From contig JAFXTB010000143.1 in assembly GCA_017525225.1 (NCBI GenBank), positions 1 to 36,769 on the forward strand: a stretch of DNA of 36,769 nt. The letters are read 5' to 3'. This DNA is from Kiritimatiellia bacterium. GTDB taxonomy: Bacteria > Verrucomicrobiota > Kiritimatiellia > RFP12 > UBA1067. This document shows positions 1 to 33,397 of this stretch, in pieces. The position numbers and the translations under genes were made by a program. Numbering within the stretch: position 1 is the first letter of the stretch; each line of letters begins with the position of its first letter. The notes below the pieces were generated by a model. It was not told the DNA's origin. It searched no databases and was given only the letters and a program-made list of their open reading frames with translations.

Positions 1-141
1 ATTTATTTAAGAACGAAGCGGAAAAGAAACGAAAAAAGAGGAAGGGAAACCCATAAAACGGGCCTTTCCAATGTTCTTGAGTCACAAATAACGCCCTGAA
101 AATCCGCGTGTCGCCGGTTCGATCCCGGCCTTGGCCACCAA
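1..141. repeat. Terminal direct repeat, left copy (circular-contig overlap)
   Basis: Bases 1-141 are identical to 36629-36769. The repeat contains about 95 bp of phage sequence followed by a tRNA-Phe 3' half. Prophage attL and attR would share only the tRNA-derived core, and one side would show the full tRNA; neither is true here. The simplest reading is a circular genome of 36,628 bp with an assembly overlap of 141 bases, a common maximum k-mer length. A genuine terminally redundant virion end is less likely because the boundary sits exactly at attP. Confidence 0.9.
96..140 (+). other. attP: attP core: 3' half of a tRNA-Phe gene
   Basis: From base 96 the sequence reads as the 3' part of a tRNA: anticodon loop CTGAAAA (anticodon GAA, Phe), 3' anticodon stem TCCGC, variable loop GTGTC, T arm GCCGG-TTCGATC-CCGGC, acceptor strand CTTGGCC, discriminator A and encoded CCA. 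The preceding bases (ATAACGCC) do not pair with TCCGC, so the 5' half is absent and this is not a tRNA gene. Carrying a tRNA 3' end beside an integrase gene is the usual attP design: integration into the host tRNA-Phe gene rebuilds an intact tRNA. The same core is repeated at 36724-36768. Confidence 0.85.
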
Positions 142-5334: not shown

Positions 5335-5822
5335 CTGTCGCTCCTTCCGTTTATGCGGATGCGCGTCTTTCCGGACGGACGCGGCCTCTGCCGCCGAAGC
5401 CTCGCCGGTCGCTTGCCGAGCTTCCGCGCCTTCATGCGTTCCGCCTTCTCCTTCTTCTCGGCCTGGTAGGATTCGTACTGCGCCTTCGTCATGCCGACGT
5501 AGCCCGTCTCCGTCTGTACCACGCGGTAGCAGTCCGGACAGGCCGCCTTCGCAGCCTCCAGCCTGGCCGCGATCTCCTGGCGCCGCTTCTCGATGCTCTC
5601 CTTGCGCTGGCGTTCGCGCTCGGCCTTCCACGCTTCGCGCTCTTCCGGAGTCATGGCCTCCAGCTTGGCCTTGAGCTTCGCGCGCCGCTCCGCCCGTCTG
5701 CCGCGTACCGCCGCCCTCGAAGATTGGACGGCAGCCGTGCCGGGAGCGTCCGTGTGTATCGCATCCCCGGCAAACGCTGGGACGAATGCCGACAGGACGA
5801 TAGCGACCATTATGCGTGTCAT
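5331..5822 (-). CDS. Exported charged coiled-coil protein
   Basis: 163 aa. The first 19-20 residues form a signal peptide ending near AFA-GDA. The rest is highly charged, with a long Arg/Lys/Glu helix (about 40-95), a CPDC pair, and a very basic C-terminal tail. It overlaps the genes on both sides (ATGA at each junction). Family not recognised. An exported helical protein beside a holin and a lipoprotein could be an inner-membrane or periplasmic lysis partner, or a virion component; this is speculation. Confidence 0.7.
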   Translation of the reverse strand: MTRIMVAIVLSAFVPAFAGDAIHTDAPGTAAVQSSRAAVRGRRAERRAKLKAKLEAMTPEEREAWKAERERQRKESIEKRRQEIAARLEAAKAACPDCYRVVQTETGYVGMTKAQYESYQAEKKEKAERMKARKLGKRPARLRRQRPRPSGKTRIRINGRSDR

Positions 5823-7045
5823 AGCGTGACCTCCTCGGCGGACAGCGTGCCGCCCGTGACTTTGATCTTGTAATACTTTGAATCCGTGCCCTTGATTACC
5901 AGCACGTCCTCCACGACGACCGTCCCTCGCAGCTTGATGCGTACGCTCTGCGTTATCGCCGGGCCGTAGGCCAGCCGGTAGAACCTTGCAGACCCCTTGC
6001 ATCCGTGCGGGATCGTCACCGTGCCGGACGTGAAGCCGACGGACTGGCTGTCTACCACTGCCGTATAGTCGTCCTCCGCCAGACCCAGCCACACCGCCTC
6101 ATCCAGCGAATCCGACGTCACCACGCCCATGTTGGCGACGTTGAAATCCGCGATGTCTGTGACATAGCCCAGCACCACCTCTTCGCCCGATATGTCTATC
6201 GAAGTGATGTTGAAATACGTGTACGCCACCGCCGCCCCCGCAGGCGACGAGAACACCATCGCGTCCCGGCGCCCGACCTGTAGCACGAGGTTCGTGGTGG
6301 TGGAGACCGTCCACGTGAAGTCGCCCGCCGAGGTGACGCGCACCGGCTTGGACGCAAGATCCACCACGTGCCTCGCCTTGTACGCCGACCAGTCCTCGCC
6401 CCGGTTGCCGTTGTAGAGGTCGCGCGCCCATGTGCGCAGGTCGCGGAGGTTGTACTTGCCGATAGGATCCATGATTTCAAAGACGACCCTATCCAGATCG
6501 TTGACACATTCCTCATCGCCGAACGCCCGCACGTCCACGGCGATCTGCGACACGACGACAGAGACGCACCCTGCGCCAAGTGCCACGTCCACTCGCGCCA
6601 CGGAGCCCTCCATCGTCTTGTGGTACCATGCCTGCGGCGGCACTATCCCTTCGCCCACACCCTCCACGCGCAGGCTGATGTCGCATACATCCAGGCCGCC
6701 CTTGACCGAAATCACTATCTGGTTCGTGACGCCGGCCTGCGTCATGGTGTACGTGTCCGCCACCGCGTTATAGACAAAGGCAGGCCCGGCGGCCACCGCA
6801 TATTCCGACTTGTCCAACCGCCGCAGCCGATAGCCGCGCAGCGACGCCGGGTCCTTGACCCGCAGCTGCGTTCCCGCGATACCGCCGATGTAGGCTTCCG
6901 CGAATCCGTTGGTATTCTCGACCCAGCATAGTTCCGCGTGCTGGAGCGGCGACGCCGACATCTGCCGCACGCTCGACTTCGGCACGTACAGGCCGTACGC
7001 CGTGAATGCGGCGGCGATGGCCGTTGCCAGTATGATGCGCTTCAT
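5819..7045 (-). CDS. Exported structural-type protein sharing a domain with the fibre-like protein
   Basis: 408 aa with an N-terminal signal-like segment (MKRIILATAIAAAFTAYGL). The remainder is beta-rich. The segment IADFNVANM and the FYRLAYG strand near the C-terminus match IADFDVTNM and LLRLVYDG in the last repeat of the 2632-4158 product, so both share at least one domain. A signal peptide in the middle of a tail operon is unusual. The ATG at 7045 follows AAGGAGG and the stop of the upstream gene immediately precedes it. Function unknown. Confidence 0.75.
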   Translation of the reverse strand: MKRIILATAIAAAFTAYGLYVPKSSVRQMSASPLQHAELCWVENTNGFAEAYIGGIAGTQLRVKDPASLRGYRLRRLDKSEYAVAAGPAFVYNAVADTYTMTQAGVTNQIVISVKGGLDVCDISLRVEGVGEGIVPPQAWYHKTMEGSVARVDVALGAGCVSVVVSQIAVDVRAFGDEECVNDLDRVVFEIMDPIGKYNLRDLRTWARDLYNGNRGEDWSAYKARHVVDLASKPVRVTSAGDFTWTVSTTTNLVLQVGRRDAMVFSSPAGAAVAYTYFNITSIDISGEEVVLGYVTDIADFNVANMGVVTSDSLDEAVWLGLAEDDYTAVVDSQSVGFTSGTVTIPHGCKGSARFYRLAYGPAITQSVRIKLRGTVVVEDVLVIKGTDSKYYKIKVTGGTLSAEEVTL

Positions 7046-9316
7046 TTATTCAACCTCCTTCAAAGTGTCGCCATATTCCGCGCAAAGGGCGCGCAGCACC
7101 GGCACGGCCGCCGAGAGGCTCGGGCCGCTGCCGATGGTGGTGAACATGGAAACCATTATCCAGCGGCCCTGGCCGTCCTTGAAGTAGATGCCGCCCGAGG
7201 AATCGCCGCCGTAGATGGGCGGGAACGCACCGGCGCCGCCTTCAACATCACGCATTGTGCGCCAGCGCGCGAGGATGTCCGCACGCACCGACGAGCTCCA
7301 TGTGTAGCCCGCGCACGTCCACGTGCAGGCGCCATAGGTGGCGGTGTCGAGATTGCCGATGTTAATAATCGCCGGCGTCATGTAGTTCCCGGCGGCGATG
7401 CCGTCCGGGCCTGTGCGGCCGACGTATGTCTGCGAGAAGGCCCACCCGCCGATGTTGCCTTTGCCGCCGAAGCGCGTGCGCAGCGTATCCAGGCTCGCGA
7501 AGTACGGGATGCACGGATCCGGCAGCGTGGCGCCGTCCTTTATCGGGTATACCGCGATGTCGGATATGTTCATCGCTTCCAGCTCAGCGCGCGTCCATCC
7601 GTGCTTCAGCGCCCACATACAGAGCGGGAAGCCGTAGTCGGCCGGGACCGTGACATCATCGTACGCCGTGGCACCCGTGGCGAGTCCGCCGGTGTTGGCG
7701 GCCACGTTCGTGTTGCCGATGGGGTCGTGGAACGTTAGCCATGATGCGTTGCCGTTGTAGCCGTAGTGGCGCGCACCGATGAGCAAATGCGGCGAGAGCG
7801 CGTTGCGCGAACGGAAGCCCTGCACGGTATGGCCGCTTATCGGACGGCACGGACAGCGCAGCGTCCACCACACGTCGTAGCTTGCGCCATCCACCACACC
7901 CGTGGCGGCGTGGGCCGATGCCGTGAGATCGGCCAGGAAGGCGTCGTTTACAGGCTTGCGCCAATGCCCCGGCAGCTCCGCGTCCGCGATGTAAACGGCG
8001 GCGTTGCTGCTCACCTGCTGCCATGCGGTGAGCGGACAGTCGGCGTAGCGGGAGCCGCGTGTCGCGGATGTGGCGCGGATGCGGTAGAGGCCCGCATCCG
8101 TGGCGTAGAACACGTTGCCCGTGACAACGCCGCCGTTCGTCGGCTCGAAGGTGACGCCCAGGGCCGACGCCGTGGCCGCATCGACCGGCGAGAGCTCATC
8201 CAGCTCCTCGACGTCCAGATCCGCCGACAGCGAGTAGTAGACAGTCTCCACGATGTTGGAGGTGATGGTGGCGGTCGTATTGTTGGTGACGTAGTTCACG
8301 TTCTGGGCCGTGACCGGCACGGAGCGCGGCGTGGCCGTGGCAACCCAGTCGCCCGGGCGCGACCATGTGGCCGCCTGTGCCGCCGAGGCGGCGGCGATGG
8401 CGGCATCGGTGTAGTTGGATGCGGCGGCGATTGCCTCCGCCTTCACCGACGGCAGGTCCACCAGGCGCGCCAGGCCGAGGGTGTTCACATTCCCTTTCGC
8501 GCTCCGCGTGGCGGTGATGTGCTCTGCCGCTGCGCCATTCGCCCATTCCAGATTCGTGGATGTCACATCGCCCCTTGACGCACCCACCCTTGAACCGTCC
8601 CTCATCGGCGCCCATCCGGTTCCCCATGAGGGGTCATCTTCGATAAACTTGAGTGTATATGTAGATGGCGTGACCGTCCATTCTGTGAATGTAGGTGTCT
8701 CGTTCGTGACTATTGCCTGCACGTCATTGGTGGACATTGACGGGTGCGCGGAGATGGCGGCATCCACCTCGGCGGCGGTGTAGATGAGATTTGTGCCCGG
8801 GAGATCTTCGAGGGGCGTGGCGCCGAAGCAGCAGCAGCAGGCGACAAGGAGCGCCATGGCCGTTCCGGAGACGATGCGCGCGATCTCGTTCACCTTGTCG
8901 CGGATGTCCTTCATGCTGGATCCGTCCGGCACGCCGTCCACCTCCGTAATCGGCACGGACGGCACGCCGGTGCCCTGCGGGTCGCTCGCCGTGGCCTGCA
9001 CAACCTTCACGTCGCCCACGAAGAGGACCGTCTGCAAGGTGTCCGTGGCATCCTTGAAGGTGACGGCGACCTGCAGCCCGCGCGAAATAGCCCCGTAGGC
9101 GGCGAAATGCGAGGCCGGGAACGTGCACACCCATTCACTCCCCAGCTTGGTCGCGGAGAGCGTGGCGGCCACGCCATCGGCGTTAAAGGCCACTACAGTG
9201 ACGGCGCTTGCGCCGCCAGGCACGCCGACAAGGCAAATCGGCATGGCGCTCCCTGCGCGGATTTCGGCAGGTCCTATCGGCAGGGCGGGGTGGTCTGGAT
9301 AGATTCTGATTTTCAT
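7046..9316 (-). CDS. Tail-tip protein with C-terminal trypsin-like serine protease domain
   Basis: 756 aa. Residues 1-130 form a beta-rich domain like those starting baseplate or fibre proteins. A hydrophobic Cys-rich stretch (about 152-165, AMALLVACCCCFG) follows a charged segment and looks like an internal signal or membrane anchor. Residues 290-320 are an Ala-rich helix. The C-terminal part (about 485-750) has the ordered landmarks of a chymotrypsin-fold protease: His517 in LIGARHYG, Asp586 in ISDIAVYP and Ser706/707 in GGDSSGG. This assignment rests on motif order and spacing, not on a search. The gene directly follows the tape measure, where tail-tip proteins lie. It may cut host surface proteins or process tail proteins. 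SD AGGAG supports the start. Confidence 0.8.
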   Translation of the reverse strand: MKIRIYPDHPALPIGPAEIRAGSAMPICLVGVPGGASAVTVVAFNADGVAATLSATKLGSEWVCTFPASHFAAYGAISRGLQVAVTFKDATDTLQTVLFVGDVKVVQATASDPQGTGVPSVPITEVDGVPDGSSMKDIRDKVNEIARIVSGTAMALLVACCCCFGATPLEDLPGTNLIYTAAEVDAAISAHPSMSTNDVQAIVTNETPTFTEWTVTPSTYTLKFIEDDPSWGTGWAPMRDGSRVGASRGDVTSTNLEWANGAAAEHITATRSAKGNVNTLGLARLVDLPSVKAEAIAAASNYTDAAIAAASAAQAATWSRPGDWVATATPRSVPVTAQNVNYVTNNTTATITSNIVETVYYSLSADLDVEELDELSPVDAATASALGVTFEPTNGGVVTGNVFYATDAGLYRIRATSATRGSRYADCPLTAWQQVSSNAAVYIADAELPGHWRKPVNDAFLADLTASAHAATGVVDGASYDVWWTLRCPCRPISGHTVQGFRSRNALSPHLLIGARHYGYNGNASWLTFHDPIGNTNVAANTGGLATGATAYDDVTVPADYGFPLCMWALKHGWTRAELEAMNISDIAVYPIKDGATLPDPCIPYFASLDTLRTRFGGKGNIGGWAFSQTYVGRTGPDGIAAGNYMTPAIINIGNLDTATYGACTWTCAGYTWSSSVRADILARWRTMRDVEGGAGAFPPIYGGDSSGGIYFKDGQGRWIMVSMFTTIGSGPSLSAAVPVLRALCAEYGDTLKEVE

Positions 9317-9324
9317 TGTGGCTC

Positions 9325-11076
9325 CTATTTCAGTCCCAGCTTCTCCAGGTTCTTCTGCATCTTGACGATCGCGTCGTGCTGCTCCTTCTGCTGGGATACC
9401 GAGAGCAGCTGCGCCTTAAGCGACTTCTCCGTCATCGCGCCGAAGTCCTTCATCGTCCAGCCGTTGGCCTTCATCTTCTGCTCGAAGGCGGCGGCCACCT
9501 CCGGACTCATCTGCCCCTTGAGGTATGCCTGCATCGCCGCCGAGGACTGCTTCACGGCGTCCAGATGGTTGCGCCCCTTCCTCTGCTCGTCGCGCACGTC
9601 GTGCTGGAGCTTGCCGAGGGTGATGACCTCGTCCGACTTGTCCACGCCGTCGCCCACGCCTGCCGCGTTGACGTTCGTGATGACGGGGGTGTCCTTGATG
9701 GCGTCCTTGATGGCCTTCGTGAGGTTGGCCGTCGAGGATCCGGCCGCGCCACCCTTGCCCTCGTTCTCGGCCTTCACCTGCTCGGCGCGCTTCTTCAGCT
9801 CTTCGTTCAGCTTCTTCTGCAGGAGCGTGTTGGCCGTCTGCTGCAGCATGCCGTCCTTGATGGCGGTGGTGTAGAGCTCCACATACTCGGCGTACTCCAC
9901 ATCGTTCGCCAGGCATACGGCCTTGATTCTCTCGATCTCGTTCTGCAGGGCGCCTTCGCGCTCGGCGGCCTCGGCGGCGGCGGCGCGGGCTTCGGTCTCC
10001 TTGTCCAGGGCGGCGTTGGCGTCCTGGTACTTGGACGTGGCCTGCTGCACCATGTCGGCGGCGGCGGCGCGTGCCACCTCCTCCTTCTGCGAGGCGAGGG
10101 TGACGGCGTTGGCGGCGCTGGTCTCTTCGCGCTTCGCCGCCTCCAGGTTTTCCCTGGCCGCCGCCTCGAGCTTCGTCACCTCGTTCAGCGCGCCGATCTC
10201 TTCCTTGTGTTCTTCCTCGAACTTCGCGAGCGCGAGCGACGCCGACTTGCGCCATGCCAGCGCCTGCTCCAGCGCGAGGCCGCCTGCCATCAGCTGCTCC
10301 ACGGACTGCGACGCCTGTGCCTGCAGTTCCTCGTACCTTGCCATCCAGCCCGTGCCGAGGCTGCGGGCCTTCTCCTCGAACTCCGCGCGCCTCGCCTGCG
10401 CCTCGCCGAGCGCGGCCTCCGCCGCTTCGCGCTTCTGCCGGATCTGCGCCTCGGCGTCCACCGCGGCCTGCCTTGCGTTCGCCGCCTGTTCCGTGGCGGC
10501 AGCCGCGCGTACTTCCGCCTGCTCGAGCGCCGCCTGCGCCATGATCGCCGAGCGCGTCGCCGCCGTCATCTCGTCCGTGATGGACTGCAGGGCCTTGACG
10601 TTGATCTCGTGCACCTTCAGCTCGGCCCGCGTGGCGACCTCGCCGTTCGTGACGGCCATCAGCTCCTTCGCCTCGGCGTTCACGTTCGATATGGCCTTCG
10701 ATACGCCGCCGAAACCGTCCACCACGGACTTCATGCCGTTTACGATCTCCGTGCGGCAGAGCTCGGCATACTTCCGCGCGGCCTCCTTCGCCTCCGTCCA
10801 CTTGGCGGCGATGAACGAGATCGCCGTGTTCGCCGCTACGGACATCGCGCCCCAGATGCCGCCACGCGCCATCTCCTGGAAGAGCGAGAGCGACGTGCCG
10901 ATGGTCGAGTTGAGCTTGCCGCCGAAAGCGCCGGCGATCTCCGATGCGACGGACTTCGCCGCCTGGCCCATGTCCTTGAAGTTCTTTCCGGAGCCTTTGA
11001 TGTCCTTGTCGAGCTGGGCGAACTTCTCGCCCACCGAGTACTTGCCCCCGAACTCCAGCTCTATCCTGGAAGCCAT
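9325..11076 (-). CDS. Tape measure protein
   Basis: 583 aa. It starts with a short globular part, has a Gly/Ala-rich hydrophobic segment (about 60-95, including FQEMARGGIWGAMSVAANTAISFIA), then long Ala/Glu/Lys/Gln-rich coiled coils (about 150-400). This layout and its place between the tail-tube genes and tail-tip genes identify a tape measure that sets tail length and helps DNA entry. From the rule of about 0.15 nm per residue, tail length would be roughly 85-90 nm. It starts right after the overlapping upstream gene. Confidence 0.85.
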   Translation of the reverse strand: MASRIELEFGGKYSVGEKFAQLDKDIKGSGKNFKDMGQAAKSVASEIAGAFGGKLNSTIGTSLSLFQEMARGGIWGAMSVAANTAISFIAAKWTEAKEAARKYAELCRTEIVNGMKSVVDGFGGVSKAISNVNAEAKELMAVTNGEVATRAELKVHEINVKALQSITDEMTAATRSAIMAQAALEQAEVRAAAATEQAANARQAAVDAEAQIRQKREAAEAALGEAQARRAEFEEKARSLGTGWMARYEELQAQASQSVEQLMAGGLALEQALAWRKSASLALAKFEEEHKEEIGALNEVTKLEAAARENLEAAKREETSAANAVTLASQKEEVARAAAADMVQQATSKYQDANAALDKETEARAAAAEAAEREGALQNEIERIKAVCLANDVEYAEYVELYTTAIKDGMLQQTANTLLQKKLNEELKKRAEQVKAENEGKGGAAGSSTANLTKAIKDAIKDTPVITNVNAAGVGDGVDKSDEVITLGKLQHDVRDEQRKGRNHLDAVKQSSAAMQAYLKGQMSPEVAAAFEQKMKANGWTMKDFGAMTEKSLKAQLLSVSQQKEQHDAIVKMQKNLEKLGLK

Positions 11077-13807: not shown

Positions 13808-14151
13808 CGCGCCACCTCCCGCGCAGCGAGGATCCATGCGTCCCCGAAGTCTGAGACCGACGATACGGCGAATTCGTCCGAGCAGGGCTTGCCACCCCAG
13901 GAGAGCAGCGTGAGCCGGTCCCCCACCGCTGGAACCCCTTCACAGTTCCATCCGCCGTCGCCGTGCTTCGGAATGTGCACCATCACCGCACGCCGGTCGG
14001 CGGCGATGGATGCGTCCATGAGCGGATCGTCCAGGCCGTTCTCGAAGATGCACGCCTTGAAGGTGCCGCTTTGCGCGGTACCCCTTACGGCGATCTCGTC
14101 CTCGTAGAACGGCGCGAACGCGGCCGGACTCTGGAAGATGGAACGGCTCAT
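13804..14151 (-). CDS. Putative head-closure (head-tail joining) protein
   Basis: 115 aa, beta-rich, with VRGTAQSGTFKACIFENG near the N-terminus and VGDRLTLLSWGGKP later. Proteins of this type, with a loop around 'VGDRL', are common as head-closure or stopper proteins after the capsid gene. It overlaps the genes on both sides by four bases. Function inferred from position. Confidence 0.6.
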   Translation of the reverse strand: MSRSIFQSPAAFAPFYEDEIAVRGTAQSGTFKACIFENGLDDPLMDASIAADRRAVMVHIPKHGDGGWNCEGVPAVGDRLTLLSWGGKPCSDEFAVSSVSDFGDAWILAAREVAR

Positions 14152-14699
14152 TCAAATACCAGGCGGAGGAATCCGTTGGAGGTTGCGGTGCCGGAGAAGT
14201 AGAGCGTGTCCGTTCCGGAGAGGAAGGTGTCCGCTGTGGGCGCCGCGGAATAGATGCCGCCCGAGGCCGTGCCGCCCGTCACGATGGCGTTCGTCACGTA
14301 GGCCGTGCGCTCATGGACTGGCCATGTGTTGGTGGTGGCCGTGACGGTGGTGTTGGTGGCGATGTCGAGCTGCGAGCAGTAGATCTGCACGGGTATCGGC
14401 AGGGCCGTGTAGTCATTCGTGAACACGGCGTGTGATACCTGGTTCGACCATGCCACGCGGTAGGTGGTGGACGTTGCCACGGCGATGTCCACGGCGTTGG
14501 TGAAGAGGGCTGTGGAGTAGACCGCTTCCAGGTTTACGGTGCCTGTCGCGACCGTCGGCGAGACGGCGATCACGCGAACGAGCTTGCCGCCGGCCTGCGC
14601 CGAGAGGCGTCCGTCCGCCCCGATTGTGGGCTGCACCACCTGGAACGCGGAGAGCGTTGCGGCGATCATGGCCGCGATTGCGATTATCATCTTCTTCAT
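14148..14699 (-). CDS. Exported protein encoded inside the head-tail cassette
   Basis: 183 aa with a classical signal peptide (MKKMIIAIAAMIAATLSAF). The mature part is Thr/Ser/Ala/Val-rich and beta-rich and ends in GFLRLVFE, similar to the strand that closes the repeats of the 2632-4158 protein. There is no Shine-Dalgarno site; a CACTAAC array adjoins the ATG. An exported protein directly after the major capsid gene is odd: it might be a surface-modifying or exclusion protein, or a capsid decoration whose N-terminus is not a real signal. Confidence 0.7.
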   Translation of the reverse strand: MKKMIIAIAAMIAATLSAFQVVQPTIGADGRLSAQAGGKLVRVIAVSPTVATGTVNLEAVYSTALFTNAVDIAVATSTTYRVAWSNQVSHAVFTNDYTALPIPVQIYCSQLDIATNTTVTATTNTWPVHERTAYVTNAIVTGGTASGGIYSAAPTADTFLSGTDTLYFSGTATSNGFLRLVFE

Positions 14700-14831: not shown

Positions 14832-15764
14832 TTACGAGACGACGATCTGGTAGTAGCCGGGCGCGCCGGTGGCGTTGCCGTCGGTGTTGAGCTTCGTCAG
14901 CTTCGAGCCGAAGAGGCCCTCAGTCGTCCAGTACGCCTCGCCGCGCTTGCCGTCGACGACGACGCGCTCTGTGAGCGTGATGCCGCTGATTTCGTCCGTG
15001 AATTCGCCGTACTCGACGAGGTCGCCCACGGCGCCCTTGAGCGGCTTGACGACGCGGTTCACGATGGCGAGCGCGTTCTCGGGGACGATGAAACCCTTGC
15101 CCTTGCCGTCGCTGTCGGCAGCGCTGTCGCGGACGATCGTGGGCGCGGAATAGATGGCCTTGAAGCCGAGCGCCTGGCCGATGGCCACGCCGCGGATCAC
15201 GCCGCCGTCGCCGACGACGCTCGCCGTGAGCAGCGAGCAGAGCAGCTTGTGCGTGCTCGGCTCGAGCAGGAGGACGCAGGTGGACGGATCGATCTTGGCG
15301 GTGCCCTCGATGTAGGCGGCGAGCGCCAGGAAGTCCGCGAGCGTGGAACCGGCGAGCGTGATGGCTGCGTCGCGCGCCGTGCGCGTGAGCTTGCCCGTGA
15401 CGGACTTGACGAGCTCGACGGCAACGGCACGGCCCGAGGCGCCGCCGAACTTGTTCCAGCAGTGCGCCGTCTCGTCCTCGATGCAGTCGAGGTCGTCCAG
15501 GGCGAACGTGGACTTCTTGCGGATGTCCGTTGCGACCAGGAAGTTCTTGATCGTGTTCGTCGCATGGCCGTAGTTGGCCGAGTCCTTGTCGAACGTCTCG
15601 GCGCTGGCGGACAGCACGTCGACTGCGATACCCGTGCCGGGCTTGACGGCCTCGTCGGAGAAGTCCGTCGTGAACTGGGAGATGATTTCGAGGGCCGGAC
15701 GGGCGGCGACGATGACCTTGTCGCTCGCGGCGATCAGACCCTTCTTGGTGAGAGAGGTTGCCAT
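14832..15764 (-). CDS. Major capsid protein
   Basis: 310 aa. It directly follows the ClpP protease-scaffold gene and contains the features of an HK97-fold capsid subunit: a helical N-terminal arm, a long alpha-rich middle (SVTGKLTRTARDAAITLAGSTLADFL), a beta-rich periphery and the segment VLLLEPSTHKLLC. No coiled-coil delta domain is visible, which fits with scaffolding being supplied by the upstream fused gene. A strong hairpin follows the stop, as is common for the most highly expressed virion gene. Confidence 0.8.
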   Translation of the reverse strand: MATSLTKKGLIAASDKVIVAARPALEIISQFTTDFSDEAVKPGTGIAVDVLSASAETFDKDSANYGHATNTIKNFLVATDIRKKSTFALDDLDCIEDETAHCWNKFGGASGRAVAVELVKSVTGKLTRTARDAAITLAGSTLADFLALAAYIEGTAKIDPSTCVLLLEPSTHKLLCSLLTASVVGDGGVIRGVAIGQALGFKAIYSAPTIVRDSAADSDGKGKGFIVPENALAIVNRVVKPLKGAVGDLVEYGEFTDEISGITLTERVVVDGKRGEAYWTTEGLFGSKLTKLNTDGNATGAPGYYQIVVS

Positions 15765-15782: not shown

Positions 15783-16871
15783 TTACTTGGTTTTCTTGGA
15801 GGTTTTGGCGTAGTGCTTGCGGCGGATCTCTTCGCGCTGCTCAGCGGACTTGGCCGCACTGAGTTCGCTCTGGTACTCCGTCTCGGCGCTGTTGCCGTCG
15901 CCGGGGGTTAGCACGCCGCCCGTCAGCAGGGCGTGTGCCTTGTTCAGCCGGTCCAGCTGCTCGCCCTTGTCGGCGAGGTCCTTCTCGGCTTTTTCCGCGC
16001 GGGTGACGGCGCTGCTCAAGTCGGCCTTGGCCTTCTCGAGGTCGCCGCGCGCAGCGGAAAGCTGATCGTTCAAGTCCTTGATTGCCGCCTTGTGCTTCGT
16101 CTCGGCGTCGGCCAGGGCGGCGGCGGATGTCTCGCCGGCCTTGGCGAGAGCGTCCTGAAGTTCCGTAATCTTCCGGGACGCGCCCTTGTAGCGCGCTTCC
16201 CAGTCCTCGGCGGCGGGCGCCTGTGCGCCGTTCTTTTGATCCGCCGCCGGTGCAGGCGTCTTGTCCTTGTGGGCATAGAAGGCGGCGGCCGCCTCCGGAG
16301 CCTTCGCGAAGAGCATGCGCGTGTCGCACTTGGCGGCGAGCTTGCCAAAGGCGTCGTCCTCGGCAGCGAGCGCCGTGCACTTCAGGCCGTACGTCTCGGC
16401 GTCCGTGTCCGCGATCCACGTCTCGGCGTCCATGATCTCCGAGAGCTTCTCGGGGCCGCAATCAAATTTTGACTGGTAGAAAGCAATAATTGACGCCTTG
16501 ATCTGGTCGAGCGTCTCGGCCTCCTTGCGCAGGTCGTTCGCGTCGCCGAGCGCGATGGTCCAGGGGTTGTGCACCATCATGAACGCACCCTTGCCCATGC
16601 GGATCTCGTCGGCGGCGCACGCCACTACGGACGCCATGCTCGCCGCGATGCCCAGGACATTGGCCGTGACCTTGCCCTTGCTGTAGCCTTTGAAGGCGTT
16701 GGCGATGGCAAGTCCGCCCGTGACGCTGCCGCCGAGCGAGTTGATGTTGATCTCGACGTCGCCTTCCTGTTTCGCGAGCCAGCCGATCACCATGGCCGGC
16801 ACCACGTCGCTCTCGAACCAGCGGCCCGAGTCGTCCTGTACGATGTCGCCGAGTAGGTTGAACGTATTCAT
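15783..16871 (-). CDS. ClpP-type head maturation protease fused to scaffold
   Basis: 362 aa. Residues 1-170 are a ClpP/S14-like prohead protease: ININSLGGSVTGGLA (oxyanion region, 41-55), nucleophile Ser78 in GIAASMAS, His101 in MVHNP and an Asp in the TWIADTDAETYGL region (151-163). A Pro/Ala linker (about 200-220) leads to a coiled-coil C-terminal region (about 222-320) rich in Ala/Lys/Glu/Asp, typical of scaffolding. The protease would cleave the scaffold, and itself, during prohead maturation. It overlaps the portal gene by four bases. Confidence 0.9.
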   Translation of the reverse strand: MNTFNLLGDIVQDDSGRWFESDVVPAMVIGWLAKQEGDVEININSLGGSVTGGLAIANAFKGYSKGKVTANVLGIAASMASVVACAADEIRMGKGAFMMVHNPWTIALGDANDLRKEAETLDQIKASIIAFYQSKFDCGPEKLSEIMDAETWIADTDAETYGLKCTALAAEDDAFGKLAAKCDTRMLFAKAPEAAAAFYAHKDKTPAPAADQKNGAQAPAAEDWEARYKGASRKITELQDALAKAGETSAAALADAETKHKAAIKDLNDQLSAARGDLEKAKADLSSAVTRAEKAEKDLADKGEQLDRLNKAHALLTGGVLTPGDGNSAETEYQSELSAAKSAEQREEIRRKHYAKTSKKTK

Positions 16872-18625
16872 TCGTCTGTTTCCTCTTTGTTGGTGTTGGT
16901 GACGCCAGCGAGCTTGTCGTCAGTCGTCATGTTCTCGTTTATCGTCTGCCCGGATACCGTTATCAGGGCAGGATGTGGTATGCCGTTCTCACGGCAGAAG
17001 TCGAGCTCTTCCTTCAGGAGCAGGAGGCGTTCGCGCCAGTCCGGGCCGAACTTCTCCCGCAGCGAGGTCGTGCAGTTCCGGAGCGCCTGGTTGATGGCGG
17101 ACTGTTCCTTCTGCGCGTCCGGCTCGCGCTTGACGGGGAAGGAATACTCCACCGCGCGGATCCAGTCCGGCGGCAGCTTGAGCGTATGCGAGATGATGCC
17201 CTTGCGGAGCGCCCACGCCGCCCAACGGCGGACGAGCCAGTCGAGTATGCCGAGCTTGAGCCCTTGCTGTTCCTGCTCGAACTTCGGCCACGTGATGGCC
17301 TGTTCGACGAGCGAGGCGGAATAGGAGCTGTCGGCCTTGCCGGTGGCGAAGAGTCCCGCGACGCCGTTCGCCCAGGAGGCATTCTGCTTGATCCAGTTGA
17401 CCATGCCGATCACATTGCTGTTCGGATGGTTGGGATTGAGGAGCTCCATCTTGAGGCCGGGCGGCAGGATGTCGTATATCGCGCCTGCGCTCTCGAGCTC
17501 GGGAAGTTCCAGCGCGTTGTCCTCCGCGCCCTCCGTGGCCTCGGCGACTGCCGCGTCCACCTCGGCGTCCGTGGCGTTCACGTCCAGCGGCGCCCGCGCG
17601 TCAGGGTCGAGGCCGTCCGATATCGCGCCGGACGGATCCGTTTCAGGCTGCGTCACGGTGGCCAAGGTCTGCGCGGCCTTCTTCGCGCTCTGCAGCTCGT
17701 ACTTGGTGAGCGCTTCGAGGTCCATCACGCTGCCGACCGACGGCGCTATCTGGGGAACGGACGCGATCTGATTGATGCGCTTTATGTGCTGGTAGATGGC
17801 GAACGGCGAATCGAGCCACGGCGTATCCGCGTCCTTGACGAGCGCCCAGACGGCGAGCCGTCCCTTGTCGTCCACCAGCCTGGGGAAGGTCGAAACGCCG
17901 CGCTGGCTCATCGAGCAGAACGCGCCGCGCGTGCGGCCGAATTCGTCCTTGATGAGTCCCTGGTGCTGGCTCCAGCCTTCCGGGAAGCGCGCGCGGAATT
18001 CGTTCTCGGCTATGCCGGCGACGGCGTCGCCCTCGAACATGATGATCTTTCCGGAGTCGCAGACGATGCCGTCGTCGAACAGGAGGACCGCGCGGCCGGT
18101 GATGTACTTCGTCCGGATCGCGAGCTTGAGGACTTCCTGCAGCGGCATGCCGTCGATGAATTCGCACTCCCTCGCCCAGTTGCCGAAGGCCGCGCGCAGC
18201 TCGAGCGCCGAGTCCCGGTATTCGGGCGGGAAGGCGAAGGACGCCTTGCCGCCGTTCGTGCCGACGACATTCAGGTCGAGCTGGGTGAGGAAGCCGTTGA
18301 GGTGGTCGGAGTTGCGCTCGAGGTTGCGGACGAGCGCGATGAGCCGGTTGCGCTCCTCGATGGTGAGGGCGGTCTCTTCGCCTCCCTGCTCGGCGTAGAG
18401 CCGCTCGCGCAGCGAGGCGTCCTTCGTCACGGCGTCATACTTGCCCCGTCCGAGGTATCCGTGGCGGCGCAAGGTCGAGAAGATGCGCCCGGCGACCCTG
18501 CGGCGCTCCTGTGGCGTCAAGTCGGCAAAGGACGGCGGCGAAGAGGAACGGGAGGGAGCAAAGGACCTTCCGCCGCCTGTCTTGGCGGACTTCGCCGCCG
18601 TCCTTTGACGCTTGATGCTTGCCAT
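16868..18625 (-). CDS. Portal protein (lambda gpB-like)
   Basis: 585 aa from ATG 18625 (SD AGGAGAG); upstream frame extension to 18844 overlaps another gene and is rejected. Residues 1-40 are a basic, Ser-rich tail. Landmarks of the lambda-type portal family (PF05136) include LRLAFGNWARECEFIDGM-like wing residues, VMDLEALTKYELQSAKKAA, the WIKQNASWANGVAG stem region, and the C-terminal crown FGPDWRERLLLLKEELDFC. The dodecamer forms the DNA entry vertex and binds terminase. It is preceded by a gpW-like gene and followed by the protease, the lambda order. Confidence 0.9.
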   Translation of the reverse strand: MASIKRQRTAAKSAKTGGGRSFAPSRSSSPPSFADLTPQERRRVAGRIFSTLRRHGYLGRGKYDAVTKDASLRERLYAEQGGEETALTIEERNRLIALVRNLERNSDHLNGFLTQLDLNVVGTNGGKASFAFPPEYRDSALELRAAFGNWARECEFIDGMPLQEVLKLAIRTKYITGRAVLLFDDGIVCDSGKIIMFEGDAVAGIAENEFRARFPEGWSQHQGLIKDEFGRTRGAFCSMSQRGVSTFPRLVDDKGRLAVWALVKDADTPWLDSPFAIYQHIKRINQIASVPQIAPSVGSVMDLEALTKYELQSAKKAAQTLATVTQPETDPSGAISDGLDPDARAPLDVNATDAEVDAAVAEATEGAEDNALELPELESAGAIYDILPPGLKMELLNPNHPNSNVIGMVNWIKQNASWANGVAGLFATGKADSSYSASLVEQAITWPKFEQEQQGLKLGILDWLVRRWAAWALRKGIISHTLKLPPDWIRAVEYSFPVKREPDAQKEQSAINQALRNCTTSLREKFGPDWRERLLLLKEELDFCRENGIPHPALITVSGQTINENMTTDDKLAGVTNTNKEETDE

Positions 18626-18626
18626 G

Positions 18627-18902
18627 TCATGCTCTCCTGATCTGTGCGAAGCCGATGACGGCCGCAGAACGTCCCGCGAGGATGCGGGCGATGGCGCGCG
18701 CCCGTTCGGCGAATTCCATGCGCTGCGCGCGCAGTTCGGCGAGGTCGATCCGGGTGTATGTCTTGGAGCCTCCGCCGGCCGAAAGCGTGGCGGAGGACGT
18801 GCCGGACCTGGCGATCTCGGCGATCGTGCGGTCCAGCTCCGCAATGTCCTTGAGGATGCGGTTGCGCTCGTTTACCAGAGCAATCTTTCTGTCGCGTGTC
18901 AC
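18627..18902 (-). CDS. Small head-tail joining (gpW-like) protein
   Basis: 91 aa from GTG 18902: two helices (ALVNERNRILKDIAELDRT and IDLAELRAQRMEFAERARA) joined by a Ser/Gly loop ending KTYTRIDL. This helix-loop-helix with a 'YT-x-x-DL-x-x-LR' turn is typical of small gpW-like proteins placed before portal genes. The frame is open to a TTG at 18935, which is the alternative start. No Shine-Dalgarno site is seen for either. A TATAAT at 18909-18914 would make an mRNA starting at or very near the GTG, so it may be leaderless. Confidence 0.65.
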   Translation of the reverse strand: MTRDRKIALVNERNRILKDIAELDRTIAEIARSGTSSATLSAGGGSKTYTRIDLAELRAQRMEFAERARAIARILAGRSAAVIGFAQIRRA

Positions 18903-19589: not shown

Positions 19590-20390
19590 TCATTTTCCAC
19601 CGCCTTTCGACAGCATCTTCACGATCTCCAGTTCCCTGTCTGACAGGCTCCACACTTTTGCCGCCGCGCGTTCTGCCGCCGCGCGTTCTGCCGCCGCGCG
19701 TTCTGCCGCCGCGCGTTCTGACAGCAGATAACCCGCGCCGAAGATGCCATTCGATCCCTGCGCGTCCATCTTTCGGATGAACGCGCACTCGCTGCGCTTC
19801 AGCGCGAACGGCGTGTGGTGCTTGCACATGTACCCCACCGCCGCGCTCGTTATCACGTGGTCGGGATAGACGTACTTCGGCAGCGACTTCTTCGACGCCT
19901 TCAGGTTCTCGTCGTTCGCCGCGTCTATTGCGTCCATGAGGTCTGGCGCGGAGCGGATGAAGTCCGTGCCGAGATTCGTGACGAACGCCGTCTCTACGAC
20001 CGCGCCGTTTTCGTACACCACGTCACACGGCGCGATGACGTGGTTCACACCCGCGCCGCCCGCGCCTATACCGAAATTCGTCAAGTACGGCGAGAACAGG
20101 AAGTAGTCGATTTTCTGCGCGTAGTACCATCTGACGATTTTCGCCAGGATGGAAAACGGCGGGTTGTCAATCACCACGCACCCGTCCGGGTAGTCGAACG
20201 CCTCGTAGTCCATCCCCGGCCAGAAGGGGCGCACGACCTCGCGGCCCTGCAGAGAGTATTCCCCGATCGCCCACGTCTTGACCGCCTCGTACACGTTCTT
20301 CGGCGTGTAGCAGTCGTCGGTCGTTTTCTTCGGCTTGAACTTTTCGAGGAAGCCGTCGTAGTCCATGAAGGTTTGCTGTCTCACGCCCAT
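19590..20390 (-). CDS. Putative adenine-specific DNA methyltransferase
   Basis: 266 aa. The catalytic motif DNPPFS (in CVVIDNPPFSILAK, about 88-101) is the N6-adenine/N4-cytosine methylase (D/N)PP(F/Y). Upstream, DDCYTPKNVYEAV resembles the start of phage methylases of this kind, and VVRPFWPGMDYE takes the place of the SAM-binding motif I, though the usual F-x-G-x-G is not evident. It could protect phage DNA from host restriction. Near the C-terminus, four AAAER repeats form a charged helix, from a 15-base tandem repeat. ATG 20390 lies two bases after the upstream stop codon region. Confidence 0.7.
   Translation of the reverse strand: MGVRQQTFMDYDGFLEKFKPKKTTDDCYTPKNVYEAVKTWAIGEYSLQGREVVRPFWPGMDYEAFDYPDGCVVIDNPPFSILAKIVRWYYAQKIDYFLFSPYLTNFGIGAGGAGVNHVIAPCDVVYENGAVVETAFVTNLGTDFIRSAPDLMDAIDAANDENLKASKKSLPKYVYPDHVITSAAVGYMCKHHTPFALKRSECAFIRKMDAQGSNGIFGAGYLLSERAAAERAAAERAAAERAAAKVWSLSDRELEIVKMLSKGGGK
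19660..19719. repeat. Four tandem 15-bp repeats inside the methyltransferase gene
   Basis: Four identical units of GCCGCCGCGCGTTCT, encoding AERAA-type helical repeats (ER-AAA). Perfect copy identity suggests recent expansion by slippage; unit number may vary between strains without breaking the frame. Confidence 0.9.
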
Positions 20391-20391
20391 G

Positions 20392-20640
20392 TCACATATC
20401 CCCCTGTTCCGCATTCGCCGCCTCGCTTTTCTCTTGAGACTTCGGTTGCATCGCTGAACCTATGGCGTCACGGAGAAACCCGATGGCCAATCTCTGCGCG
20501 CTCTTTTTGTTGGCGCACACGGGACACGGCTCCAGCGCGATTGGATGCTCGTCTTCGCAGATGTAGAACAATGGAGACACAAATCTGTCTGCTTGCACGA
20601 GTTCCGAACCGCAAACTGCGCAGAATATGCGGACTTTCAC
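20392..20640 (-). CDS. Small zinc-binding protein
   Basis: 82 aa from GTG 20640, preceded by AAGGAGGCGC. CAVC (about 7-10) and CPVC (about 39-42) pairs suggest a zinc ribbon; the rest is helical and ends in a Gln/Glu/Ser/Ala tail. Possible nucleic-acid binding protein. It overlaps the genes at both sides. Confidence 0.6.
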   Translation of the reverse strand: MKVRIFCAVCGSELVQADRFVSPLFYICEDEHPIALEPCPVCANKKSAQRLAIGFLRDAIGSAMQPKSQEKSEAANAEQGDM

Positions 20641-27389: not shown

Positions 27390-27539
27390 TTATCCTTTCA
27401 TGAATACGGTTGCCAGCGTTATCTGTCCGGCGGCGGCCCAGTACCACGACCGTGCGTAGTCGTGGTACCAGACGCAGATCACCGCTTCGACGAAGTCGAA
27501 CGCCGCCAGGCAGATCGGTATGATGTGCCGCGCGTCCAT
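27390..27539 (-). CDS. Small two-span membrane protein (49 aa)
   Basis: ATG 27539 has GAGGAGGAAGG upstream and an ATGA overlap with the PcfJ gene's stop. Two hydrophobic stretches (HIIPICLAAFDFVEAVICVW and YWAAAGQITLATVFM) surround a short WYHDYARSWYW turn. The turn is encoded by a perfect inverted repeat. Function unknown. Confidence 0.65.
   Translation of the reverse strand: MDARHIIPICLAAFDFVEAVICVWYHDYARSWYWAAAGQITLATVFMKG
27441..27468. promoter_or_regulatory. Perfect inverted repeat inside the 49-aa gene
   Basis: GTACCACGAC (27441-27450) and GTCGTGGTAC (27459-27468) with an 8-base loop. The size is fit for an RNA hairpin or protein binding site. No T-run follows, so it is not a standard terminator. 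Confidence 0.5.
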
Positions 27540-29086
27540 CAGGCCGCCTTCCTCCTCGGCACTTTGAACAGTCCGGCCTTACGATGCCGCTTGTGTTCCT
27601 CCTTAAGGAACGCCGCGATCCGAGCCGCGAACTCGCGCACTTCTTCGGGCGGTGTTGTATTGCCTTTGAGATAGCATTGGCTCACGCGCCAGTTCCTGCG
27701 GTCGATCTCGATGTCGCAGTAGCTCTTCCCTCCGAGGCCCAGCATCACGATCAGCCTGTCACCCTCGACGATGCCGCGCCCGTAGGTGCCGTTGCCGACG
27801 CAGTTGCCCATTCGCCGACCCTCGGCGCGAAGCTCCTCCTGCGTCTTCGCCAGGACGAGCGTGTAGCCGCATCCCCTGAGCGTCGCCGTGCGCCGCAGCG
27901 ACTTCTGGAACGCCTCGATCTCCTCGAAGCGCACCTTCATCGTCTTTGCGATCCATTCCCTCTCGGCCTTTTCCTTCGCCTTGCAGCGCTTCTTCTCGGC
28001 CCGTTCGCGTATTTCCTCCAGCCGCGCACACTCGCGTTCCAGCTCTTCCAAACGCGCCATGAACGCCTTGCGGCCGCCGCGCGTCGGAGGGTAGAGGGTG
28101 CCGTCGTTCTTGAGGTCAAGCCCGGCGTCGAAGGCGTGCTGGATGTATCGCCCGTACTCGTAGCCGTCCACATGCCATTTCTTCAGCAGCCCCGCGAGCC
28201 GTTCGTAGTCGAGTTTGAGCTTGACGCCGGCACGGTCATGCCTGGGATATTTAAGATGCCAGCGCATGCTGTCCAGCTCGTGGGAAAGGTTACGTACGAC
28301 GATTTCGTAATGATGGCGCGCATCTTCCAGCGTCGTGTCGTGCCGTGCCGCCCAAAGGACGTACTTGATCGGCAGATGGCTGTGTTTCCGCAGCATCGCC
28401 ATGTTGTCCTTCGCCCATTGGAATATGCGTTTTTGCTTCAGCGCCTTCAGCCCGGCCGGGTTTATGAAGCAGTAAAGCCCGCACTTCGCCAGCAGCTCGA
28501 CCTTCGGCTCCCAACGGTAGAGCGCAAGCCACTCCATCAGACCTGTGTGGCATGGCACGTCGTCGTCGTACTGGCAGTATTGGTACCGTGTTCCCTCCAG
28601 CGCCTGTGGGTTCACGGTTTCGTCGAATGTGCGGTTGAATCCAGGGCGGCCATGCTTGAAGTCCATGTGGTAGGACCGGTCGTCAACCCGCCTCCCTATC
28701 CGGAACTTCTCGCCCGCGCGCGGCTTCCGCTTGCGGTAGTCGCTTTTCGCCCACCTGACCGTCCATCCTGCAATCCCGTGATAGGACAAGTCGCGGTATT
28801 CCTGCCAGCCTGTTTCCGGACGCATCCACATGACTTCCTTGACGATCGGCACGTAGTTCACGTCCAGACGCACGGCCACGTTCACGATGCAGACCTCTTT
28901 CTTCGTCGGCTTGTCGAAACCTAACACCTCTGCAAGGCTTTTTTCCTTGCTTTCGCATGGCACGATGTAGTTGTACCTGATCGTCCGCCGGTTGAATTCC
29001 TTCAGCCGGTCGATGCGCCGGGCGCATTCCCTGTACTGGCGGTCGAACTCCACCACTTCCGCTATCTGTTCATCCGTAAGCATCAT
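27539..29086 (-). CDS. PcfJ-like protein
   Basis: 515 aa. The C-terminal ~92 residues contain the hallmark of PcfJ proteins (PF14284): RRMGNCVGNGTYG followed by DRLIVMLGLGGKSYCDIEID and an Arg/Trp strand. The N-terminal half is rich in Tyr/Arg/Trp and a coiled coil spans about 350-410. PcfJ was named in enterococcal plasmid pCF10 and is widespread in gut phages and elements; its biochemical role is not settled. Its usual partner PcfK is nearby at 29700-30260. The start at 29086 follows GAAAGCGAGGTG. Confidence 0.85.
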   Translation of the reverse strand: MMLTDEQIAEVVEFDRQYRECARRIDRLKEFNRRTIRYNYIVPCESKEKSLAEVLGFDKPTKKEVCIVNVAVRLDVNYVPIVKEVMWMRPETGWQEYRDLSYHGIAGWTVRWAKSDYRKRKPRAGEKFRIGRRVDDRSYHMDFKHGRPGFNRTFDETVNPQALEGTRYQYCQYDDDVPCHTGLMEWLALYRWEPKVELLAKCGLYCFINPAGLKALKQKRIFQWAKDNMAMLRKHSHLPIKYVLWAARHDTTLEDARHHYEIVVRNLSHELDSMRWHLKYPRHDRAGVKLKLDYERLAGLLKKWHVDGYEYGRYIQHAFDAGLDLKNDGTLYPPTRGGRKAFMARLEELERECARLEEIRERAEKKRCKAKEKAEREWIAKTMKVRFEEIEAFQKSLRRTATLRGCGYTLVLAKTQEELRAEGRRMGNCVGNGTYGRGIVEGDRLIVMLGLGGKSYCDIEIDRRNWRVSQCYLKGNTTPPEEVREFAARIAAFLKEEHKRHRKAGLFKVPRRKAA

Positions 29087-30262: not shown

Positions 30263-31363
30263 TTAGCACTTCCTCAGCGGCATGATTACGGCGAGCCATT
30301 GGATCGCGCACTTCAGGACGATTGCCGACGAGCCGTCATTGAATTCGGCCGTCATCTCGTCGTCGGCGATGCAGTCGAGCGCCGGCGCCAGGAGTGCCGG
30401 GTCGAGGTGGAACGTCACGGCCTCGCCTTCGTACTTGGCCACCATGTCGATCTTCGCGCGTGTCTGCTGCGACCTCGCGTCGAACGTGATCTTGCCGTTC
30501 GCGAACGTGACGGATACGCCGAGCTGTTCACCTGCGATGGCGGCGGCGGCCCGCTGCAGCTCCAGGAGGAAGGTCGCACGGTTGAAGCAGGCGCGCTTGC
30601 TGCAGGACTCCGGGACGACCTGTTTCCAGTTGGGGTATGCGGCGTCGATCCGCTTCGTCGTGACGCACCAGTCGTCCGTGACGAAACGCACGACCGGGCC
30701 GGACATGCGGATGCCGCAGTCGCCGCCGTCGTCATTCTTGGCCAGGAGGCGCGAGAGGATCGCGACCGTTGCCGATGGGATTGTCGCCTCGAAGTCCTCG
30801 CCGCCGTTCGTGCCGTACTCCACCGTCGCGAGGCTGCGGCCGCTGGTGGCGGTGGCGACGAGGCGCCCGTCCGCGTGCTTGAGGTTGACGCCCATGAGCG
30901 ACTTGCGCGTTTCGTCCGTCGAGGCGGCGAAGCGGACCTTGCGGATCATCTCGGCGAGCGTCACGCAGGGGATGAAGAGCGTCTTGACCTTGTCGTCCGT
31001 GTCGGCGGTGGCCATCGCCGGGAAGTTCGCCGGGTCTGCCGTGGCGAGGTTGTAGTTCACCTCGCCGCCGGTGATGTGCGCCATCTTGTCCTTCTCCGCC
31101 TCGATCGTGACGACACCCTCTGGCATCGCCGTGACGAAGCGGGCGAGGAAGGCGGAATCCATCAGGATGTCGCCCGTATCTTCGACCTCCGCTTTGGTGC
31201 GGTACACGACCTGCAGGTCGAGGTTCGTGGTGGTGAGGGACAGGTACCCGGCCACGGCGTCGAGGCGCATGTTCCGGAGTACTTGATGCTGCACTCCCTT
31301 GTTTATTCCTGCGACGGCGTTGATGCCGTTCAGCAGCTTTGCTCTTGTGATTTTCAGTTTCAT
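30263..31363 (-). CDS. dnaN: DNA polymerase III beta subunit (sliding clamp)
   Basis: 366 aa, close to the usual ~366-380. Three repeats of the clamp fold can be traced; landmarks are ETRKSLMGVNL (about 155), AAYPNWKQVVP (about 240) and the C-terminal WLAVIMPLR, equivalent to the YVIMPMR of bacterial clamps. It would form a ring on DNA for the host or phage polymerase; no phage polymerase is present. Phage-borne clamps of bacterial type are uncommon in genomes this small. It starts in an ATGA overlap with the upstream gene. Confidence 0.9.
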   Translation of the reverse strand: MKLKITRAKLLNGINAVAGINKGVQHQVLRNMRLDAVAGYLSLTTTNLDLQVVYRTKAEVEDTGDILMDSAFLARFVTAMPEGVVTIEAEKDKMAHITGGEVNYNLATADPANFPAMATADTDDKVKTLFIPCVTLAEMIRKVRFAASTDETRKSLMGVNLKHADGRLVATATSGRSLATVEYGTNGGEDFEATIPSATVAILSRLLAKNDDGGDCGIRMSGPVVRFVTDDWCVTTKRIDAAYPNWKQVVPESCSKRACFNRATFLLELQRAAAAIAGEQLGVSVTFANGKITFDARSQQTRAKIDMVAKYEGEAVTFHLDPALLAPALDCIADDEMTAEFNDGSSAIVLKCAIQWLAVIMPLRKC

Positions 31364-31729: not shown

Positions 31730-33397
31730 CTAGACCTCTTCCTCTTCGTCGTCATCCGCTACCGTGGCGAGGTCTTGCGGCACCGGCGGAGGCGGTTGCG
31801 GCAGGACTTCCTCGATGAGCGTGCCGTTCTGGCGGAGCGCCGCCTCGAGCGGATCGTGGCGCCAGTCGGCATGCACCTTGGAATAGAGCGGCGAGTAGTC
31901 GCTTGTCGTCTTTGCTGTCACGCCGTAGCCGCTGGACTTGACGAGCGGCTGCGCTTCCCAGTTGCCCAGCATTATGCAGCAGTATTTTTTGTAGAACACG
32001 AACGGGAACCAGATGTCCGGCCCGGCCTGCCCGTTCTGGTTCTTTGCGATGATCATGCGCACGGGGTCGATGCCCTTGAATTCGACGAGCGAGCAGGATG
32101 GCGTCAGGCCGATAGGCGCGCCGAGCTTCCCGGTGGAGTCCGGCGTCATCCACGCGGTCTTGACTTCCTTCTCGCGGTGGAGGATCCAGACGGCGAAGGC
32201 GTCCTGCTCGAGCGCGCCGGATCCGCGCAGGTCGCTGGCGGTCGGCACGCGCCCGCCGTCCTTCTCGCATTCGCGATTGAGCTGCGACAGCGCGATCACG
32301 GGAATGTTGAGGTCGATTGCGATGGACTTCAGGACGCCCGAGACGTACTCGATCCGTTCCTCCGTGTTGCTGAAGCGTCGCGAGGCGCGCAGGAGCTGGA
32401 CGAAGTCCACGACGAGCACGTCGAGCTTGCCGACGGCCCGCATGGCGACGGCCCAGGCGCGCAGGCGGTCCACGTCGCGGAAGTCCACGAGCGTCAGCGG
32501 CCACTTGGCGATCTCGGCGGTGGCCCGTTCCATCGCGGCGAGGTCCTCGCGTGTCGTCGTTCCGAAGCTCGCTTTGTTGAAGCTCACCCTGGAATATTCG
32601 CCGAGCGGGCGTTTCATGAGCTGGACGACGGCCATGTCGAGCGAGTCGAAGCCGACGTTGATCCCGCGCTCGCACCAGAAGCGGATCAGGTTCAGCATGA
32701 ACGCCGTCTTGCCGACGGACGGGCGCGCGCCGACGTAGTAGAGTCCTTCCTGGACGCCGTTTGCCTTTTGGTTCACGGCCGGCCACGGCAGCGGGATGCC
32801 GGGCGTGTAGTCGAGCCGGTGTTCGTCTATGCGTATGCGGTGCGCCTCGCGATAGGTATCGAGGATACGGTCGAGAATCTTGGCGGGCGGTACCGTTTTG
32901 GCACCCATAGACGAGGCGAGGATGCTGGTAATGCGGGTATTGAGCTCCGCGATCGCGTCCGACGGATCCAGCCCGATGGAGAGCGCCTTCGTGAATTCGC
33001 CTTGTGCTTTGCTTAGGCGGCGGAGCATGACTTCGCTACGGAGGACCTGCAGGTGGTAGTCGAGGTGCGAGACCACGACCACGCCGTCCATCGCCTTCTG
33101 GATGTCGGCCGTGGAGACATCCACCTTGCCTTGTGAATCAGGCGCCATGATTATTTTTCGCACGCGGTCCAGGACGGCGAGAACGAAACCGGCGTTATCG
33201 CCATCATCGGCGGGGACGCCATGCTCGCCGAACACGTCCAGAACCGCACACCAGGCGACCTTCCACTTGTCGCTCGAGAACCAGTCGGCGGTGACTCCTG
33301 CCTCGATGCAGCGCGGCACCACATTGGCCGGCCACGTCAAGGCGCCGCCAATGATTCCGGATTCCGCCTCGGCGACAATCTCGCCCTTCTCGATCAT
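31730..33397 (-). CDS. dnaB: Replicative DNA helicase (DnaB-like)
   Basis: 555 aa. A short N-terminal DnaB domain (EAESGIIGGAL, about 10-110) is followed by the RecA-like motor: Walker A GARPSVGKTAF (223-233), Walker B LDVLVVDFVQLL (325-336), then SQLNREC and LRGSGALEQDA (the arginine-finger/H4 region). The usual SLEM motif after Walker A is SLDM here (252-255), so the conserved Glu is Asp. The C-terminus is a Pro/Glu-rich tail (EEEEV). It unwinds DNA for replication and is coupled to the putative initiator gene by ATGA. Confidence 0.92.
   Translation of the reverse strand: MIEKGEIVAEAESGIIGGALTWPANVVPRCIEAGVTADWFSSDKWKVAWCAVLDVFGEHGVPADDGDNAGFVLAVLDRVRKIIMAPDSQGKVDVSTADIQKAMDGVVVVSHLDYHLQVLRSEVMLRRLSKAQGEFTKALSIGLDPSDAIAELNTRITSILASSMGAKTVPPAKILDRILDTYREAHRIRIDEHRLDYTPGIPLPWPAVNQKANGVQEGLYYVGARPSVGKTAFMLNLIRFWCERGINVGFDSLDMAVVQLMKRPLGEYSRVSFNKASFGTTTREDLAAMERATAEIAKWPLTLVDFRDVDRLRAWAVAMRAVGKLDVLVVDFVQLLRASRRFSNTEERIEYVSGVLKSIAIDLNIPVIALSQLNRECEKDGGRVPTASDLRGSGALEQDAFAVWILHREKEVKTAWMTPDSTGKLGAPIGLTPSCSLVEFKGIDPVRMIIAKNQNGQAGPDIWFPFVFYKKYCCIMLGNWEAQPLVKSSGYGVTAKTTSDYSPLYSKVHADWRHDPLEAALRQNGTLIEEVLPQPPPPVPQDLATVADDDEEEEV

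Follow-up and report, generated by a model that had tools for sequence, protein, structure and literature searches.

A predicted chymotrypsin-fold protease with a signal-like segment and a linked partner gene in the tail module of a temperate phage of Kiritimatiellae

Most of the enzymes known from phage tails cut glycans or peptidoglycan. A gene in a stretch of 36,769 nucleotides from a Kiritimatiellia bacterium, which was analysed at its full length and is here called the window, raises the questions of whether a phage tail protein may instead carry a trypsin-like protease and, if so, where such an enzyme would act. No trypsin-like domain in a tail protein was found in the literature searched, a body whose coverage leaves subscription journals largely outside.

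The ends of the contig are an exact 141-base direct overlap (window 1-141 and 36629-36769), so that joining them gives a circular genome of 36,628 bases. Because of this circular closure and an integrase-like gene, recognised by reading its sequence, the contig is a complete temperate phage captured as a circle. Within the overlap lies the 3' portion of a tRNA-Phe gene; an intact tRNA-Phe on contig C27, from the same assembly, shares a 31-base core with the overlap (attB) and is the likely attachment site of the phage in the same bin. The late genes run on the minus strand in the order portal, head protease, capsid, small head and tail genes, tape-measure-like gene, protease gene and partner, after which come DUF1353 and lipoprotein genes. 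The principal genes are:

108-1481, integrase-like gene
16868-18844, minus strand, lambda-type portal, a late gene
15783-16871, minus strand, S14 (ClpP-type) head protease, a late gene
14832-15764, minus strand, probable major capsid protein, by position and composition
9325-11076, minus strand, tape-measure-like gene of 583 residues, assigned by size, composition and position and not by a family match
7046-9316, minus strand, tail-module protein of 756 residues with a predicted C-terminal protease, an open reading frame with a ribosome-binding site
5819-7045, minus strand, partner gene of 408 residues with an N-terminal signal-like sequence and a strong Shine-Dalgarno sequence

Elsewhere in the window, the phage encodes its own DNA polymerase sliding clamp (DnaN; 30263-31363, minus strand) and DnaB-type helicase (31730-33397, minus strand), and its early region holds a PcfJ-like protein (27539-29086, minus strand), whose family is named after a conjugative plasmid gene. 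A short in-frame tandem repeat, AAAERAAAERAAAER, is found near the end of the gene at 19590-20414 (minus strand).

The preliminary description had placed a tail protein at 7046-9316; these coordinates are correct, and the strand, which it did not give, is minus. The gene directly follows the tape-measure-like gene in the late operon, its ATG start is preceded by a TAGGAG ribosome-binding site, and residues 1-120 of its product are common to tail-region proteins of other prophages. The position and the common domains support the assignment to a tail-module protein, of the tail tip or a fibre. The predicted parts of the gene, all on the minus strand, are:

8963-9316, minus strand, N-terminal domain, residues 1-118, common to tail-region proteins in other prophages
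8813-8878, minus strand, hydrophobic segment, residues 147-168, RIVSGTAMALLVACCCCFGATP, signal-peptide-like or lipobox-like (LVAC)
8372-8812, minus strand, linker, residues 169-315, in part common with the signal-bearing tail-region gene L038
7967-8371, minus strand, beta-rich Ig-like domain, about residues 316-450, N-terminal to the protease across the family
7049-7879, minus strand, predicted chymotrypsin-fold protease domain, residues 480-756, by triad alignment, PDB profile and homologue model
7766-7768, minus strand, codon of the predicted catalytic His517, by GARHYG context and alignment
7559-7561, minus strand, codon of the predicted catalytic Asp586, by SDIAVYP context and alignment
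7199-7201, minus strand, codon (TCC) of the predicted nucleophile Ser706, followed by Ser707 (TCG) at the Gly position of the homologues

The architecture is modular. In other prophages the N-terminal domain is either fused to other C-termini or encoded as a separate open reading frame: residues 1-120 recur without the protease on the Kiritimatiellae prophage tail-region proteins L036 and L042 and as separate open reading frames in L037, L039 and L043, and in both L039 and L043 the reading frame that follows begins with a signal-like sequence. Residues 118-160, which span linker and hydrophobic segment, recur in L040 before a different C-terminus, and the counterpart of the Ig-like domain in L034 is Big_2-like. 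These arrangements suggest that the fused protein, if it were exported and cleaved, would yield a pair of products matching those of the two separate genes. A second product translated from internal start codons before the signal-like segment was also considered and was rejected, as these codons have no convincing Shine-Dalgarno sequence.

Homologues of the protease were sought in 144 related genomes, 162 genomes of the order, 388 genomes of the phylum, GTDB contigs and viral contigs. Eleven further relatives were found, in Kiritimatiellae and Verrucomicrobia MAGs, on viral contigs (the domain is encoded on two of those scanned) and in one distant family of the phylum (L034). A twelfth, protein P0002 of podovirus MW202510.1, is the one match in the phage collection and was reached with L034 as the query; the window protein and the G104 protein as queries matched nothing in that collection. 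The podovirus is unrelated to the window phage and also has its protease relative in the virion module. Over the protease region these 12 proteins are mostly 18-36% identical to their window counterpart, and the alignment of all 13 has four invariant columns, namely one Ala and the His, Asp and Ser of the triad, whose order is conserved in 13/13. Judged from this alignment, the conserved triad is more than chance. The motifs of the relatives are near textbook (TAAHW, DIWV and GGDSGRP), those of P0002 read HILSVAHT and AGDSGSP, and most members have an insertion of about 16-20 residues (LxxWAxxxGxxxxE) before the Asp.

The window protein departs from this pattern after the nucleophile. Its triad had been put at His517 in GARHYG, Asp586 in SDIAVYP and either Ser706 or Ser707 in GGDSSGG, and all of these residues are where they were said to be. 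Because Ser706 aligns gap-free with the GDSG serine of the other members, it is the predicted nucleophile, whereas the other candidate, Ser707, sits at the position of the usual Gly. GDSG is found at the nucleophile in 11 of the 13 proteins, with WESG in L033 and GDSS in the window; the broader motif (G/W)(D/E)SGxP holds in 12/13, and GDSSGG occurs in the window alone, the sole copy with Ser after the nucleophile. Since GDSS replaces GDSG, the predicted activity of the window copy is uncertain and could be weak or absent.

Pfam, PHROGs, PADLOC and NCBIfam returned nothing for the 756-residue protein, a direct PDB sequence search with it gave no match, and no known protease family in Pfam, NCBIfam, PHROGs or PDB was matched significantly by sequence. 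The domain appears to be an undescribed relative of trypsin that lies outside the Pfam, PHROGs and NCBIfam families. When the family profile was compared with PDB at E<=10, 7 of the 8 matches were PA-clan proteases of three families (norovirus NS6, represented by five near-identical entries, the Pet autotransporter and enteropeptidase); with a best E of 0.1 these sub-threshold matches are supportive, short of significance. For the window's 441 residues, an AlphaFold model built with six sequences had a pLDDT of 42 and matched no protease, while that of the L018 protease part had a pLDDT of 49 and a pTM of 0.50, with block means of about 54-90 over residues 80-160. With the L018 model, Foldseek gave S1 proteases in all of the best 50 rows (best E 1.1e-3, probability up to 0.99), and VIA-align gave Z values up to 7.1, placing residues 69-270 on trypsin 38-245 with an offset of 31, by which L018 His88 falls on trypsin His57. 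A Z below 8 is by itself weak fold evidence; because the VIA match of L018 is joined by a triad in register, a chymotrypsin fold is likely for the protease family, as modelled at low confidence. The chymotrypsin-fold domain of the preliminary description thus gains support from triad conservation, the sub-threshold PDB profile and the homologue fold matches, and the structural comparison that it proposed gave a divided result, with no trypsin match for the window model and a favourable, low-confidence one for L018. A profile-profile alignment against the trypsin and HtrA proteins of the relatives was dropped, as its probability was 2.5% and wrong-frame sequences were among the templates.

Residues 147-168 are the most hydrophobic stretch of the window protein and lie internally. 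By a hydropathy rule and inspection by eye, as opposed to a trained predictor, a Sec-signal-like segment precedes the protease in 11/11 Kiritimatiellae family members; it is at the extreme N-terminus in L045, L047 and L033 and after 57-155 residues in the others, where the position in L044 depends on an uncertain start. Many segments end in AxA-type sites (AQA before E or D, and VFA before T), and that of the window ends in LVAC, which is compatible with a lipobox too. The hydrophobic stretch of L034 is only weak and podovirus P0002 has no signal segment on reading, so predicted export does not extend to every member of the family.

Signal-like starts are not confined to the protease gene. Further tail-region genes of Kiritimatiellae prophages (L046 734-6619, L038, L039 and L043) open with such sequences, and L046 734-6619 has three of these genes consecutively. 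In the window, the gene at 14148-14699 (minus strand), which adjoins the probable capsid gene, has a clear signal-peptide-like start, MKKMIIAIAAMIAATLSAF, which is odd for a head-region gene, and a similar gene is found in a comparable place at L037 6407-6943. The absence of signal sequences has been taken as support for phage origin (PMC6199706), and signal-like sequences on tail genes contradict the usual rule that virion proteins are without them.

The start of the partner gene adjoins the stop of the protease gene. A homologous partner is present in 10/10 loci examined, a set outside which the distant L034 and podovirus MW202510.1 lie, with 21-28% identity to that of the window. The partners begin with a hydrophobic stretch, which is short in L035, L046 and L047. 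Among the 162 genomes, full-length partners of about 400 residues occur only beside the protease (9/9 copies), a tenth and partial copy stands beside the diverged L033, and no protease copy without a partner was found. One further partner match, in G096 (E 3.6e-5), was not counted, because it lies in a glycine-rich open frame where a contig begins. The phage backbones that carry the pair differ, with a lambda-type portal and S14 protease in the window, an SU10-type capsid in L044 and a T4-type terminase near L017. Since the linked pair is found on these differing backbones, at least three in number, the protease and its partner appear to move between phages as one cassette. Neither the libraries nor the literature searched yielded another tail cassette that pairs a chymotrypsin-fold protease with an obligate partner. 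As a separate observation, the distant homologue L034 is adjoined by a GDSL-lipase-like protein (L048 9591-11138, minus strand), which would place two putative hydrolases in one virion module.

Based on these results, we propose that the C-terminal 277 residues fold as a chymotrypsin-type (PA-clan) serine endopeptidase with His517, Asp586 and Ser706 as its triad, and that this protease is the exchangeable effector part with which a modular protein of the tail tip or fibre ends in a temperate phage. It would act outside the cytoplasm: the hydrophobic segment would take the protease through Sec, possibly with cleavage at that point, and the protease and its partner would meet outside the cytoplasm, after which they may be incorporated into virions set free by lysis or stay at the envelope of the cell; there the protease would cut host surface proteins during adsorption or release. 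Taken as a whole, the probable explanation is, in our judgement, an exported chymotrypsin-fold protease that forms the effector part of a modular tail protein, and this explanation suggests that phages of Kiritimatiellae gut bacteria cut proteins outside the cytoplasm. The interpretation offered earlier, of a tail protease directed at a protein-covered host surface such as an S-layer or at the tail itself, is borne out in part; it had missed the signal-like segment, the obligate partner and the replacement of Gly by Ser next to the nucleophile, and the S-layer as target is an unsupported guess.

A classic virion-borne tail-tip protease would be assembled in the cytoplasm as the 756-residue protein and clear surface protein at infection, its hydrophobic segment being buried in the tail or entering the host membrane at DNA ejection. 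Such an enzyme agrees with the late tail operon position and the common tail N-domain, as well as with the relatives outside the order that have no signal segment and are still in virion modules; we nonetheless regard it as doubtful, for L045, L047 and L033 open directly with an ordinary-looking N-terminal signal sequence, AxA-like sites end many of the segments, and Sec export is to be expected in a diderm host. The signal-like sequences on both genes of the pair, and the strict linkage with which the pair moves between phage backbones, would also suit an exported protease that never enters the virion, a moron-like protease on the surface of the lysogen or infected cell that, together with its partner, would strip off receptors and so serve superinfection exclusion or progeny release. 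That the tail N-domain is fused to the protease in the window and that the gene stands among late structural genes make this unlikely. Loss of catalysis in the window copy, with the fold kept as a receptor-binding module, is suggested by the missing Gly after the nucleophile and by the WESG of L033, but all three catalytic residues are kept even in diverged copies, and we hold such a binding-only domain to be improbable. An enzyme that cleaves its own tail protein or its partner in tail maturation, for which the obligate adjacent partner could be the substrate or a pro-region, is quite unlikely, given that head maturation is already served by the S14-type protease and that the partner alignment shows no obvious conserved cleavage site on inspection. 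A role of the 7046-9316 protease in head maturation is unlikely, because the S14 head protease is encoded separately at 15783-16871.

The exported effector that we prefer could be taken one step further, in that phages of Kiritimatiellae might route tail proteins through the host Sec system, so that the tail domain would stay cytoplasmic, the protease and partner would be released into the periplasm, and the cleaved protease with its partner would join virions only at or after lysis. This extension is speculative and seems to us rather unlikely; if true, it would keep a trypsin-like enzyme away from the cytoplasm.

Among known systems, the chymotrypsin/trypsin-like proteases (PA clan, S1) share with the family the His-Asp-Ser order, the TAAH, DIxV and GDSGxP motifs of the homologues and the fold match of L018, whereas the family differs from them by having no significant sequence match, by the insertion before the Asp and, in the window, by Ser for Gly. 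An alphaproteobacterial phage cluster, cluster N, encodes a trypsin-like serine protease (PMC10783043), and is alike in having a phage-encoded trypsin-like protein. SAR and secretory endolysins are phage enzymes with Sec signals that act outside the cytoplasm (PMC6116005), but they are cell-wall hydrolases of the lysis cassette, unlike the tail-gene protease here. A thaumarchaeal provirus has a capsid protein with a fused PA-clan protease, which has been proposed to act in capsid maturation (PMC6563490); the two cases are alike in having a PA-type protease in a tailed-virus structural module and are set apart, by description, by the placement of the protease on a tail protein here. The window protease also falls outside the Caudoviricetes head maturation proteases, the S14 enzyme of the head being separate. 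Tailspike and fibre depolymerases are exchangeable C-terminal enzymes on modular tail proteins that act on glycans. The protease described here is likewise an exchangeable C-terminal enzyme, but it is a predicted endopeptidase and not glycan-acting, and a mobile cassette of a protease and its obligate partner, carried on several backbones within one bacterial class, may represent a different answer to a protein-covered host surface.
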